From assembly GCF_019891175.1 (NCBI RefSeq), contig NZ_CP072600.1, positions 5,208,001 through 5,272,000 of the forward strand: a stretch of 64,000 bases of DNA. The letters run 5' to 3'. The translations under genes were made by a program, and so were the position numbers. Shown here piece by piece: positions 14,265 through 44,184 of this stretch. Position 1 is the stretch's first letter; each line of letters begins with the position of its first letter. The DNA is from Leptothermofonsia sichuanensis E412 (GTDB taxonomy: Bacteria; Cyanobacteriota; Cyanobacteriia; Leptolyngbyales; Leptolyngbyaceae). Under the pieces are notes generated by a model, which searched no databases, was not told where the DNA came from, and saw only the letters and a list, made by a program, of their open reading frames with translations.

Positions 14265-14305
14265 GATTGTTTATAGCCCTTTTCAAGGGTGTGAAGCTTA
14301 GTGGT

Positions 14306-14375
14306 GTAAGATCTCCAACTTCTTCGAGAAGTTGGAGATCTGAGCAATCGTGTTTGGCTTAATTCAGTGCCATTC
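14306..14375. repeat. MITE-like repeat R1, copy A
   Basis: It carries the R1 internal palindrome (AGATCTCCAACTTCT and its complement, 14309-14341) and the outer end TTGGCTTAATTCAGTGCCATTC, in reverse orientation to copies at 29561 and 44054. The opposite end does not match the R1 terminal repeat, so this copy looks truncated. An 11-12 bp direct repeat TTTATGACGCA occurs twice just to its right (14377-14400). Confidence 0.75.
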
Positions 14376-15661: not shown

Positions 15662-16081
15662 CTATAGGGCTGAAAGCGCTTCAAACGCTGGAGAACTGCT
15701 CAATGCTTCACTGGAGCCTGGCAGTCGGCGCAGAGTTCTTAACTCTGCTTCCAGGTTTTCTATCCGTTGCTGAAGTTCCTGGTTTGCCTGGGTGAGTTCC
15801 TGTGCTCTGGTACTGAAGTGGGGGTTATTTTCCCACCAGTTAATCCCAATTTCCCTGGCTTTATCGACCGAGGAAATGAGCAGACGAATGCGGATATTGA
15901 GGAGTTCCGTATTGGCAACGGAAACGGAAATATCGCCAGCAATAACTATGCCCTTATCCAGCACCCGCTCCAGCACATCTGCCAGAGTGGACCCCTGGGT
16001 AGAGGTTGTGATGGCTCTGGCAGAATCTCTGGTGGGCAGGGGAGATCCCGGAAACCCTCTGGTTGGAGTGGGGGTTGTCAT
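15662..16081 (-). CDS. gvpJ: Gas vesicle protein GvpJ
   Basis: 139 residues. The GvpA-like core is at about 31-85 ([18 protein letters not shown], then [19 protein letters not shown]), followed by a coiled-coil-like C-terminal extension (about 90-125). GvpJ is a minor component thought to act at the conical tip or in nucleating the vesicle. Its ATG overlaps the gvpN stop by 4 bases (ATGA), implying coupled translation. It is the last gvp gene here; gvpK, F/L, G and V, which follow in many cyanobacteria, are not found in the 620 bp downstream. Confidence 0.9.
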
Positions 16082-26953: not shown

Positions 26954-28118
26954 CTCAGTACAGGACAAAACTTGTCAATTGAGGCACACAGAGGGTTGAA
27001 AACTTAGGCGGGAAGGGGTTTCCTAGGAATAACAACAAACCAACGAGACCCCCATGCAACAGATTACCGAATTTCGCCAAGTTTTGCAGCCCCTCCTCGG
27101 TTGGCATGGTGCGCGGCTGGCATTTGTGGCTCAATTTCTGATCGCCCTGCTACGAACCCGTACGGTGAATCTGAGCGAATTGGCTGCTAGCTTTTGTGGT
27201 TCCGCCCAAATTCCGTCGAACTACAAGCGTCTCCAGCGCTTCTTTAGCGACTTTGATCTCGATTATGCGGCGATTGCCCGTGCCGTGGTCTGCCTGATGG
27301 GGATCCCGCAGCCTTGGGTGCTCGCCATAGACCGCACCGAATGGAGCTTTGGCGGTAGCGTTTTCAACATTCTCACCCTGGGCATTTGCCATCAGGGTAT
27401 TTCCTTTCCGGTGGTGTTTCTGATGCTGGACAACCGCGGCAATTCCAACACCCAAGAGCGCATCGATTTGCTCAACGAATTCTTCACGATTTTTGGCGAG
27501 GATGTCCGCCTGCGGTGCCTGACGAGCGACCGCGAATTTGTTGGGCGGGAGTGGATTGGCTATTTGCTCGAAGATGAGCCAATCCCGTTTCGGGGGCGGA
27601 TTCGCGAAACTGAAACGCTCAGTGATGGCAGCAAAGCCCTGAATGGCCGCGTCCTCTTTGCCGATCTCAAAGCGGGTGAAACCAAGATTTTACGCAAACG
27701 CCGTCAAGTGTGGGGACATTGGGTGTATGTCGTTGGTCTGCGGCTTGACACCCAGGAATTACTGATTTTGGTCACCAACCATTCACCCCATTCAGCCCTC
27801 AAAGATTACGCCCTGCGGTGGAATTTAGAAACCCTGTTCGGTGCGTTCAAAACTCGGGGCTTCTGCCTCGAAGCGACCCATTTTATTGATGACTACCGAG
27901 TCCGCAAGCTCTTTGCGCTCCTCACATTGGCGTTATGTTGGGTGATGCGAACGGGGGTGTGGCGGCAGGCGCACAAAACGATTCAACTCAAGTCCCATGG
28001 GCGCAAAGCCCAGAGTCTATTCCGATATGGCTTAGATTACTTGCACAACCTACTCGTTAATCTTGACCATAAATTAGATGAGTTCTTGGACAATCTCAAA
28101 CTTTTGTCCTGTACTTAG
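26954..28118 (+). mobile_element. IS4-family insertion sequence
   Basis: 1165 bp. Inverted ends CTCAGTACAGGACAAAA / complement CTAAGTACAGGACAAAA (16 of 17). A 9-bp direct repeat GAACTGGAT flanks it exactly (26945-26953 and 28119-28127). The transposase stop codon TAG falls in the right end. Both ends, the target duplication and the gene are complete, so the insertion looks recent and possibly active. Confidence 0.92.
27054..28118 (+). CDS. IS4-family transposase
   Basis: 354 residues. DDE motifs: D in VLAIDRTEWSFG, D in CLTSDREFVG, and the IS4 signature Y-x2-R-x3-E-x6-K in YALRWNLETLFGAFK. It catalyses cut-and-paste movement of the surrounding element. The frame is intact, with good codon use. 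It sits between the divergent Wza-like gene and the exopolysaccharide operon. Confidence 0.92.
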   Translation: MQQITEFRQVLQPLLGWHGARLAFVAQFLIALLRTRTVNLSELAASFCGSAQIPSNYKRLQRFFSDFDLDYAAIARAVVCLMGIPQPWVLAIDRTEWSFGGSVFNILTLGICHQGISFPVVFLMLDNRGNSNTQERIDLLNEFFTIFGEDVRLRCLTSDREFVGREWIGYLLEDEPIPFRGRIRETETLSDGSKALNGRVLFADLKAGETKILRKRRQVWGHWVYVVGLRLDTQELLILVTNHSPHSALKDYALRWNLETLFGAFKTRGFCLEATHFIDDYRVRKLFALLTLALCWVMRTGVWRQAHKTIQLKSHGRKAQSLFRYGLDYLHNLLVNLDHKLDEFLDNLKLLSCT

Positions 28119-29440: not shown

Positions 29441-29560
29441 ACGATTAGTATTGGCATCTTTTCCCTGCTTTTCAGCGCAAGCAGCGCTTTTGTGGTTCCA
29501 GGTGGCTTCGATGGAGATCACTTTCGAAGGCTAATCAGCGGCTAAATGTTGGGTATGGTG

Positions 29561-29652
29561 GAATGGCACTGAATTAAGCCAAATGAGATCGCTCAGATCT
29601 CCAACTTCTCGAAGAAGTTGAAGATCTTTAACCCTCTATGTCAGTGTCATTC
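29561..29652. repeat. MITE R1, copy B, complete with 10-bp target duplication
   Basis: 92 bp. Terminal inverted repeats GAATGGCACTGA / TCAGTGTCATTC (11 of 12) enclose the palindrome AGATCTCCAACTTCT...AGAAGTTGAAGATCT. GGGTATGGTG occurs at 29551-29560 and again at 29653-29662, exactly abutting both ends. It ends 47 bp before the first exopolysaccharide gene start. Confidence 0.88.
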
Positions 29653-29699
29653 GGGTATGGTGCTTTTTCAATCAAGCTGGAGTGTTCAACTTTTTAGCT

Positions 29700-30782
29700 A
29701 TGAGAGTTGCTTTAGTTCACGATTATCTGACTCAGCGCGGTGGAGCGGAGCGTGTTTTTGAACTGCTTTGTAAACGCTACCCCGAAGCAGACATTTTTAC
29801 CTCACTCTACGATTCGGAGCGAACGATTGATTTGAGCGATCGCCTGGTTCAGACCACGGTTTTGCAGAAAATTCCGGGAGCCGCCAAACACTTCAGGCTG
29901 TTAGCTCCCCTGTATTTCCCTGTATTTAGAACCCTTGGTTTGCATGACTACGATTTGATTATTAGTAGCAGCAGTAGCTTTGCCAAGGCAGTGCGCAAGC
30001 GCCCAGATGCTCGCCATATTTGCTTCTGCCACAACGTCACCCGATTTCTCTGGGACACACAAACCTATCTACGGGAGTATACCGCTTACAGAAGGTTTTA
30101 TCCCATAATCGACAGAGCATTTGACTTATTGCGACGAATGGATTTGAAATATGCTCAGGAACCTGATTTGTATATTGCAAATTCCAGTGTGGTGGCTGAT
30201 CGGATTCAAACCACTTACAAAAAGCCAGTGGTGGTGATCAATTATCCAATCGATAGCAATCAATTTGTCTTCTCAGAACAGAAGGAGGAATTTTATCTGG
30301 CATCGACTCGATTGATCAGTTACAAACGCATTGATGTGGTCGTCGAGGCATTTAACTGGTTGGGATTGCCTCTACTGATTACTGGAGACGGTCCAGAACG
30401 ACAGCGTCTGGAGTCTCAGGCAATGGGAAACATCCAGTTTTTGGGGCATGTCAGCGACGAAGAACGCACTCAACTGATGGCAAAAACCCAGGCAGTGGTG
30501 GTGGCAGCATTAGAAGATTATGGGTTGGTGCCTGTTGAGGCAAATGCCAGTGGGACGCCTGTGATTGCCTATGGTGCAGGTGGTGTGCTGGATACTCAAA
30601 TTGCTGAACAAACGGGTGTTTTGTTCAATCGCCAGACCCCAGAAGCATTACAGGCAGCTTTGTTAAGAGCAACGAAGATTAACTGGAACTACCAGAAGAT
30701 TCGGGATCATGCGCTGACCCATTTTTCTGAGGATGCTTTTTTTAGAAAGGTGGATCAGTTTTTCAGGGAGGTTTACAGCTAA
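29700..30782 (+). CDS. GT4 family glycosyltransferase
   Basis: 360 residues from ATG 29700 (MRVALVHDYLTQRGGAERV); an in-frame GTG at 29682 is less likely. GT-B fold: the N-terminal acceptor half with GGAER, and the C-terminal nucleotide-sugar half with STRLISYKRIDVVVEAF, GDGPER and the EDYGLVPVEANASG E-x7-E motif. It adds a sugar to the growing lipid-linked repeat unit in the cytoplasm. It is the first gene of the exopolysaccharide series; its stop overlaps an inverted repeat. Confidence 0.88.
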   Translation: MRVALVHDYLTQRGGAERVFELLCKRYPEADIFTSLYDSERTIDLSDRLVQTTVLQKIPGAAKHFRLLAPLYFPVFRTLGLHDYDLIISSSSSFAKAVRKRPDARHICFCHNVTRFLWDTQTYLREYTAYRRFYPIIDRAFDLLRRMDLKYAQEPDLYIANSSVVADRIQTTYKKPVVVINYPIDSNQFVFSEQKEEFYLASTRLISYKRIDVVVEAFNWLGLPLLITGDGPERQRLESQAMGNIQFLGHVSDEERTQLMAKTQAVVVAALEDYGLVPVEANASGTPVIAYGAGGVLDTQIAEQTGVLFNRQTPEALQAALLRATKINWNYQKIRDHALTHFSEDAFFRKVDQFFREVYS

Positions 30783-38773: not shown

Positions 38774-38916
38774 TTTTGCAGGTTGGATTTCGCTGTGCTC
38801 AACTCAACAAAACAGACGCAACCAGATCAGCAATCGTGCTGGATTTCCGTTTTCACTCCAACCCGGCCTGCGCAAAATTTACTCGCAAGATTCACCAGTC
38901 AGATCAGGTAAACAGT

Positions 38917-40053
38917 ATGAGGCGATCGCGGTTTACATTTTGTGTCCCCAACTTAAACAAGGTGGACTATTTGCCCGCCTGCATTGAGAGCATTCTGGCG
39001 CAGGATTACCAGGACTGGCGCTGTGTATTTGTTGATGGCTATTCCACCGATGGCAGTTGGGAATACATACAACAGTTTGCTTCGGATCCCCGGTTTCTGT
39101 TACTGAGAGGATTGCGCCAGGGAATGTATGCCGATTGGAATGAATGTTTGAGGCATGTCGAGACAGAGTATTTCTACTTTTTAACCAGTGACGATACCTG
39201 CTTACCAGAACTTGCTTCCACTGCGATCGCTGCCCTCGATGCCCATCCATCAGTAGACGCCTGCCATTTTCAATTCAACCTCATCGACGAGACGGGAGCA
39301 ATTATGATTTCCCATCAAGCCCTGGTTGATAAAGCATTCAGTTTATACTCTGAGGGAAATCAGATCGCCCATTTACGTTCTGGAATGAGTGAATTTATGA
39401 TGCATTTTGTCTACCGGGCACTCTATCAGACGATCACTTCACTCGTATTCCGTCGTCGTGTGATTGAAGGGCTGGGAGAGTTTTCTTCCAGCTATGATGC
39501 AATTGGTGACTACGATTGGACCATGCGTTTAGGACTGTATACGGATATTCTTTTTATTCCCAAACTACTAGCGACCTGGCGGGTCTACACAGGACAGGCA
39601 ACCGAAGATGCCATGATGCCCCATATCACCAGTAACCTGCTGGCGATCGCCCAGAAAAACCTGGAACTGCTCAAACGCAGCGGCAAAGATCGCACCCTTA
39701 AACATCCACCTGACGATAGAGAAATCCTCTCAGACCTGCGCAACGAACACGCCTGCTCCCTGTACCGGGCGATCGTAGCTTCAAAAACACTCACCCAGGC
39801 ATTGAAACACCTGTCCTCTCTGCTCAAACACTATCCACTCTATCCCATCAAAAAGCTCCTCAACCGCCTCAGCCACAACCAGCTCTATTCCTATCCTGGC
39901 AGAACCTCCTTTGCCCACCAGCTCATTGCAACCTACGGTCTTGATTGGATTACCCCGACAGAAATTCCACAACTCAACTCTCAATTAATTCGGTGTGGGG
40001 CAATTCCCAGATCCCTGGCACCTGCGGAACTTACTTTAGCCGAATGGCCCTGA
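38917..40053 (+). CDS. GT2 family glycosyltransferase, C-terminus changed by a repeat insertion
   Basis: 378 residues from ATG 38917 (CAGG about 10 bases upstream), which fits the GT-A start RFTFCVPNLNKVDYLPACI; the open frame begins earlier at a TTG, 38776. Motifs: VFVDGYSTDGSWE and FLTSDDTCLPEL. The last codons (GAA TGG CCC TGA) belong to the terminal repeat of R1 copy C. Without that insertion the frame would continue for 19 codons (NYTQINKMPG...). The catalytic domain is unaffected. Confidence 0.85.
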   Translation: MRRSRFTFCVPNLNKVDYLPACIESILAQDYQDWRCVFVDGYSTDGSWEYIQQFASDPRFLLLRGLRQGMYADWNECLRHVETEYFYFLTSDDTCLPELASTAIAALDAHPSVDACHFQFNLIDETGAIMISHQALVDKAFSLYSEGNQIAHLRSGMSEFMMHFVYRALYQTITSLVFRRRVIEGLGEFSSSYDAIGDYDWTMRLGLYTDILFIPKLLATWRVYTGQATEDAMMPHITSNLLAIAQKNLELLKRSGKDRTLKHPPDDREILSDLRNEHACSLYRAIVASKTLTQALKHLSSLLKHYPLYPIKKLLNRLSHNQLYSYPGRTSFAHQLIATYGLDWITPTEIPQLNSQLIRCGAIPRSLAPAELTLAEWP

Positions 40054-40147
40054 CATAAGGGGTTAAAGATCTCCAACTCCTTGAAGAAGTTGAAGATCTG
40101 AGCAAGCGCATTTTAGCGAGTACATCTGGCTTAATTCAGTAACATCC
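40042..40147. repeat. MITE R1, copy C, overlapping the end of a glycosyltransferase gene
   Basis: 106 bp from GAATGGCCCTGA to TCAGTAACATCC, with the R1 palindrome (40068-40099) and the outer end GGCTTAATTCAGT. Flanks TACTTTAGCC (40032-40041) and CGCTTTAGCC (40148-40157) match in 8 of 10 bases, a decayed target duplication of the same length as in copy B. Confidence 0.82.
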
Positions 40148-44053: not shown

Positions 44054-44121
44054 GAATGTCACTGAATTAAGCCGACTGCGATCGCTCAGATCTCTAACTT
44101 CTCGAAGCAGTTGGAGATCTT
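44054..44121. repeat. MITE-like repeat R1, copy D (truncated)
   Basis: GAATGTCACTGAATTAAGCC followed by the palindrome AGATCTCTAACTTCT...AGCAGTTGGAGATCT. The other terminal repeat is missing. Same orientation as copy B. Confidence 0.75.
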
Positions 44122-44184
44122 TAGAACTGAAGATTGATGCTACCGGGAACTAACCACTAACCACTACCCCTCACCTCTCCCTCT

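Follow-up and report, generated by a model that had tools for sequence, protein, structure and literature searches.

The R1 element and its surroundings

The window, that is, the whole stretch of 64,000 nucleotides analysed here, covers positions 5208001-5272000 of the single 6,426,061-bp contig of Leptothermofonsia sichuanensis E412 and has a GC content of 50.9%. The accessible part of the genome description (PMC8997340) gives one circular chromosome of 6,426,061 bp with a GC content of 50.8%, and 431 IS copies. The element under study, R1, was delimited from the window sequence and a genome search as an intact copy of 92 bp (29561-29652, + strand), and it lies between two perfect 10-bp target duplications, GGGTATGGTG, at 29551-29560 and 29653-29662. 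This decamer occurs twice in the whole window, both times directly adjoining R1. The left terminal inverted repeat (18 bp, GAATGGCACTGAATTAAG, 29561-29578, + strand) was defined from the window, the end matches in the genome and the family consensus, and the right one occupies 29635-29652 (- strand). A sequence-only reading had described 92 bp, a perfect 10-bp duplication and 12-bp terminal inverted repeats; the length and the duplication hold, but the outer 12 bp of the two ends, GAATGGCACTGA and, reverse-complemented, GAATGACACTGA, agree at 11 of 12 positions. The same reading placed a palindrome with a 15-bp stem in the centre. Sequence and fold confirm it as a hairpin AGATC...GATCT with a 3-base loop (29595-29627), although the stem carries one mismatch in R1 and the palindrome is perfect in the family consensus. 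In the stretch 29653-29702 downstream of R1, the probable ATG (29700) of a glycosyltransferase gene follows at a distance of about 37 bp; the counterpart of this gene in the second Leptothermofonsia genome (G001, the only one of the same genus among the relatives listed) is without the element.

Three more copies, in both orientations, had been announced for the window and are real, but they are less complete than R1. End and genome searches placed them at 14298-14375 (- strand), without a right end or a duplication; at 40042-40147 (- strand), full length, carrying a small insertion in its interior and flanked by a degenerate duplication, TACTTTAGCC / CGCTTTAGCC, that matches at 8 of 10 positions; and at 44054-44123 (+ strand), again without a right end. 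A family-2 glycosyltransferase frame (38776-40053) has its TGA stop (40051-40053) inside the terminal repeat of the second of these. The window further holds an IS4-family transposase at 27054-28118 (model NF033591, 252.8 bits), which has 23 matches of identical score in the genome, most of them with frames of 361 aa, and a gas vesicle protein gene (PF00741) at 15662-16081 (- strand). The octamer GCGATCGC, which we take to be HIP1-like, is present in 74 copies over positions 1-64000, and one lies inside the MITE consensus. Rfam gave no match at the gathering score over window positions 14000-45000.

Copies, target duplications and an empty site

The 18-mer end was matched five times in the window at up to three mismatches (0.05 expected) and 112 times in the genome at up to two mismatches, against none for the reversed control. 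Searching the genome with the 92-bp unit, by model and by BLAST and with collection of the flanks, gave about 130 distinct copies, a lower bound as the model search scored the best 150 of 4302 candidates; 90 of them are near full length. Only seven of the 130 have more than half of their length inside a reading frame of at least 150 codons, the other 123 being mostly outside frames. In several copies (L039, L175, L178, L181, L144) part of a hairpin arm is duplicated in tandem.

Duplications of 9-12 bp, counted with up to 20% mismatches, flank 66 of the 90 near-full-length copies, compared with 64 of 8010 (0.8%) mismatched flank pairings. They are exact in 26 copies (10 bp in 19, 11 bp in six and 12 bp in one), and 24 of the 90 have no recognisable duplication. 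The flanks of the genome copies give a nearly palindromic target profile, RnCTATAGnT. Joining the flanks of copies with a duplication produced one frame of at least 200 aa that spanned the insertion site, near its 5' end, and no clear gene disruption; this frame presumably belongs to a pyridoxamine-oxidase-like gene (a name taken from its sequence), and the insertion is probably in the leader of that gene.

The R1 site was compared with the second Leptothermofonsia genome. There the gene downstream of R1 has 77% DNA identity, and the match starts at the edge of the duplication, at window position 29661. The joined flanks of R1 gave one contiguous alignment that spans the site and contains neither the element nor a second copy of the target. 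The upstream half of this alignment is short and gapped and raises the score only from 149, for the downstream part by itself, to 158 for the joined flanks, and one site was tested; the empty site would thus be good but not perfect evidence of insertion. R1 is short (92 bp), has no transposase, exists in many copies, and has terminal inverted repeats that agree at 11 of 12 bp in R1 and extend to 18 bp family-wide. Copy number, duplications and this one empty site agree with the earlier view that it is a genuine MITE.

IS4-family elements with matching ends

The 10-bp duplication had been taken to fit an IS4-like or related enzyme, and IS4-family elements of 1478-1480 bp with 18-bp ends of the R1 type and duplications of 10-11 bp do exist in other cyanobacteria. 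One genome (G046) has a 1480-bp element with GAATGGCACTGACATAAG-type ends and an exact 10-bp duplication, GGCTTAAGCC; another (G084) has a 1478-bp element with ends of the same type and a 10-bp duplication with one mismatch; and in a third (G006) the element, of 1480 bp and with an exact 10-bp duplication, GTCTATTTCT, has an interrupted transposase frame. The end-pattern scan of named genomes, which gave at least 118 stretches, placed four 1480-bp elements with these ends in Nodosilinea nodulosa PCC 7104, among the matches listed. Three of them have exact 10-bp duplications (TTCTTGAGTC, AACTTTAGCC and CGCCATAGTA) and the fourth (L247) an exact one of 11 bp. Three N. nodulosa transposases were compared and found 99.8-100% identical, and this near-identity suggests recent movement. 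Phormidium FACHB-1136 has one 1480-bp element with matching ends and a duplication with one mismatch. The 18-bp end pattern was also seen in MAGs labelled Planctomycetota, Pseudomonadota and Roseomonas (L265, L300, L329, L311, L267, L273). In a Coxiellaceae MAG (CANJXG) it lies within about 250 bp of contig ends (L227, L231, L240, L246, L256, L298), as if the assembly had been broken by a multi-copy IS with these ends.

Two of the transposases were scanned and matched NF033592 (transpos_IS4_1) at 197.4 and 224.2 bits, the cut-off being 115, and DDE_Tnp_1 (PF01609) with E values of 3.3e-15 and 1.7e-13. The IS4 family has the signature Y(2)R(3)E(6)K and duplications of about 10-13 bp. The IS4 of Escherichia coli K-12 MG1655 was used for comparison: its transposase InsG can be aligned over about 420 residues with six partner transposases, the candidate D, D and E of which align with those of InsG, and its ends and duplication are arranged alike, the 18-bp ends, TAATGCCGATCAGTTAAG / TAATGCCAGTCAGTTAAG, having a similar pattern. 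However, InsG is only 26-28% identical to the transposases of the group, the E. coli ends match the R1-family ends at 11-13 of 18 positions, and the E. coli duplication has 12 bp (CAGAACCAAGAT) where the R1 group has 10-11. In all six full-length transposases of the group the Y, R, E and K of the signature are there and align, but their spacing is Y(2)R(4)E(6)K, with one residue more between R and E than the Y(2)R(3)E(6)K of InsG.

In E412 itself the group is represented by a relic at about 2521490-2521865, in which the first 109 residues of an IS4-type transposase, 39-54% identical to the intact ones, lie inward of an end, CAATGGCACTGAAATAAG. Used as a query against the relatives, the relic gave matches in eight of 97 genomes, its own counted. 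A full-length transposase of the group searched in the E412 genome found this relic alone (one match of about 100 residues) and no intact gene, and in G001 a fragment of 54 residues alone. The MITEs of this genus therefore appear to be orphans. An autonomous element that shares the MITE ends was found in G046, G084, N. nodulosa, Phormidium and, with the interrupted frame, G006, while E412 has the relic alone.

The best explanation overall is that R1 is a non-autonomous insertion element, a MITE, of a cyanobacterial group of the IS4 family (probability about 0.93). A DDE transposase of this IS4 group would cut out the element after recognising its 18-bp ends (GAATGGCACTGANNTAAG) and reinsert it with a stagger of 10-11 bp at the loosely palindromic RnCTATAGnT, and repair of the gaps would leave the 10-11-bp duplication at both flanks. 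Since no intact transposase was found in E412, the candidate mover of R1, a transposase of this group, is taken from the relatives, and amplification in E412, where the relic is truncated, has probably stopped.

The IS4 element that lies near R1 in the same window (27054-28118) and is abundant in this genome would be a convenient mover, as its family fits, but we hold this to be very improbable. Its transposase belongs to the other IS4 model (NF033591) and has 24-26% aligned identity to the transposases with R1-type ends, and no pair of R1-type ends was found in 12 genomic loci of the element with equal score (L201-L212); for the window's own copy the ends were covered by the window-wide end search alone. 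End scan, model and low identity thus disfavour it, consistent with the earlier remark that the R1 ends are unlike those of the IS4 element, which was then placed at 26954. A static palindromic repeat, of the REP/BIME type or terminator-like and not transposable, could account for the strong fold (z of -5.9 and -4.7 on the two strands), for the location of most copies outside reading frames and for hairpin arms that are the best-conserved part of the element. It would leave unexplained the duplications at 66 of 90 copies where the control gave 0.8%, the existence of IS elements with matching ends and the empty R1 site in G001, and the core lacks a GTAG or CGTC tag; we see hardly any chance for it, and for the 92-bp unit the duplications and the empty site rule it out. 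Membership of R1 in an IS4-group MITE family is solid, and an orphan MITE is in this way tied to its transposase group. With several near-identical full-length copies, N. nodulosa PCC 7104 is a genome suited to testing the MITE/transposase pair.

Conservation of the central hairpin

Divergence from the majority sequence was calculated for 84 of the 90 near-full-length copies, the six outside 86-98 bp being left out. The two hairpin arms diverge by 3.5% and 4.4%, the ends by 5-16%, the spacers by 20% and the loop by 47%, so that the arms are the best-conserved part of the element in E412. Arm divergence showed no trend with the state of the duplication (rho 0.06, p 0.56): it is 2.6% where the duplication is perfect, 5.8% where it has one mismatch, 5.3% where it has two and 2.9% where none can be recognised. 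Selection on the hairpin after insertion would fit this flat trend, but detection favours copies with intact hairpins and such selection is not claimed.

Across genera, hairpins of the AGATC class were aligned in 17 rows, seven of them from E412. In this alignment 98.4% of the cells pair, and both sides have changed in seven of the 15 pairs. None of 500 shuffles reached four of the five covariation measures, and slid controls were far lower; only the count of further pair types, at 9 against 9.9, showed no increase. The alignment shows that pairing is kept while the sequence changes across the genera of this class. Covariation of this kind is expected under selection for pairing and also under wholesale swapping of palindromes, so these two cannot be told apart by it. 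The hairpin has probably been retained because pairing helps the amplification or the tolerance of copies.

Interiors and element length

The centre of R1, which the sequence-only reading treated as part of the element, is a repeat with an independent existence in other genomes. The strict hairpin pattern was found in 12 of 97 relatives and the end pattern in 17 of 97 (control matches 0 and 1), and one genome (G032) has 15 hairpins against three end matches. Of 35 distinct hairpins of the AGATC type read outside E412, 34 lack an end within 85 bp at up to four mismatches; by the same criterion an end falls by chance near 28 of 3000 random windows. Among palindromes with the GTAG tag, 19 of 26 distinct ones have no end within 85 bp. 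These counts took repeat views of one site once and left out known MITE loci (L084-L086, L095, L104) and the E412 loci L385 and L394, with L091, L094 and L108 unscored. The reverse case is G001: it has 29 end matches and no strict hairpin, and its MITEs, 154-299 bp long, enclose another kind of interior with several hairpins. In E412 no hairpin was found outside MITE sequence in a sample of 864 kb (18 of 18 lie inside, one of them recognised by eye from its left half), and capture must therefore be argued from the other genomes.

At least three classes of interior without clear homology occur between these ends, and two of them are palindromes that also occur alone. The AGATC hairpins are found in E412, G006, G010, SM1_4_3 and FACHB-8; class B, with GTAG palindromes, in MAG.87, a Coleofasciculus MAG and Shackletoniella; and the third class in G095 and Coleofasciculus LEGE. 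Oculatella, Tildeniella and G001 have other interiors, and the MITEs of the first two contain long palindromes, of the CTTCGACTACGCTCAGCC type (L269, L316) and the CCCCCAGATTTGGGGG type (L266). Alignments across classes gave z below 3 (100 shuffles per pair) except for one pair at 3.9. When the window family was compared with two GTAG-class elements, reverse in-register identity reached 0.43, and the classes may thus share a remote origin.

For the GTAG palindromes the places listed in three genomes were used, 98 sites coming from 100 of the 102 places in one genome and the rest from all places in the other two. An end with at most one mismatch lies within 80 bp of 32 of the 137 sites; the 105 without one are an upper bound on solo sites because two of them (L523 and L539) have decayed ends. 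In loci chosen for having ends, GTAG motifs near the ends outnumber those away from them by 32 to 1 in MAG.87 and 13 to 2 in Shackletoniella. Neither a GTAG nor a CGTC tag is present beside the window core AGATC...GATCT, the GTAG tag being found solely in the class-B cores of the other genomes.

Element length was examined in 76 end pairs 60-330 bp apart, some nested, from loci grouped by hand and thus not from every locus. A duplication flanks 58 of them (10 bp in 31, 11 bp in 25 and 12 bp in two). Elements of exactly 92 bp were found in the Coleofasciculus MAG, G006, G010, G095, MAG.87 and Shackletoniella; these represent all three core classes, the third with a duplication in G095. Other lengths are 102 bp (G010, Kaiparowitsia and Shackletoniella), 122-124 bp (Tildeniella and Oculatella) and 154-158 bp (G001), and duplications also flank elements of 87, 90, 91, 163, 174, 205, 219, 220, 289 and 299 bp. 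Within a class, equal length follows from shared descent, and a length constraint across classes is plausible.

Solo hairpins elsewhere and the same ends around other interiors suggest a conserved chassis for transposition whose palindromic core can be exchanged. We conclude that R1 belongs to a new IS4-group MITE family of this construction. In E412 its centre is a 33-bp AGATC...GATCT hairpin, a type that other cyanobacteria have without these ends. What is new is that the interior is modular and that the length recurs. We infer the capture of cores, the length constraint and a hairpin function from the comparison of genomes. More specifically, the chassis may have repeatedly taken up unrelated palindromes in different cyanobacteria, with the length held at 92 bp or at values longer by roughly one or more helical turns (102, 122-124), since in the synaptic complex the two ends would need to point towards each other and the central hairpin would bring them together; this proposal is tentative, and we give it roughly one chance in three.

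Another possibility, to which we would assign roughly one chance in three, is that no core was ever captured and all these MITEs come from one ancestor whose interiors diverged in place, the solo hairpins being remnants or unrelated. The AGATC-class interiors of the five genomes are indeed homologous and in register, the 92-bp length recurs across MITEs, and the reverse identity of 0.43, the pair at z 3.9 and the GTAG counts near ends in MAG.87 and Shackletoniella point the same way. Against it stand the remaining cross-class pairs, all with z below 3, and the palindromes without ends, both AGATC-type (34 of 35) and GTAG (19 of 26, and 105 of 137 as an upper bound that includes missed decayed ends). 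It is also conceivable, but unlikely, that the core is itself mobile through an HUH enzyme (RAYT or IS200-IS605) that inserts palindromes into MITEs. GTAG-tagged palindromes do sit inside class-B MITEs and also stand without ends, and in the accessible text of PMC3733652 a GTAG tag on a palindrome is a REP signature; yet the AGATC hairpin of the window has neither a GTAG nor a CGTC tag, and the recurring total length is unlike what free HUH-type insertion predicts.

If the cores of the chassis are exchanged at fixed length, MITEs would be vehicles by which cyanobacterial palindromic repeats spread, and the length of the element would read out the geometry of the IS4-type synapse. In any case a transposon can have, as its interior, a repeat that might be mistaken for a terminator or a REP.

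In the literature covered by our search, which lay outside most subscription papers, 'Leptothermofonsia' was not found together with 'MITE' and these ends were not found described. Nezha, according to the available parts of PMC3733652 and PMC10969869, is like R1 a cyanobacterial MITE. Cyanobacterial GTAG families are reported in the part of PMC3733652 at hand, and the cores of MAG.87, Shackletoniella and the Coleofasciculus MAG, each a GTAG with a palindrome, were likened to them by description, whereas the window's own core has no GTAG tag. QMITE2 of Coxiella burnetii is an earlier example of a MITE with a REP inside: in the accessible sections of PMC10969869 it holds a GTAG REP and has truncated copies that look like REPs. 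Compared by the description given in the same sections, QMITE2 is unlike R1 in its direct repeats of 7-9 bp, its ends of 23-29 bp and its core of 113-145 bp.
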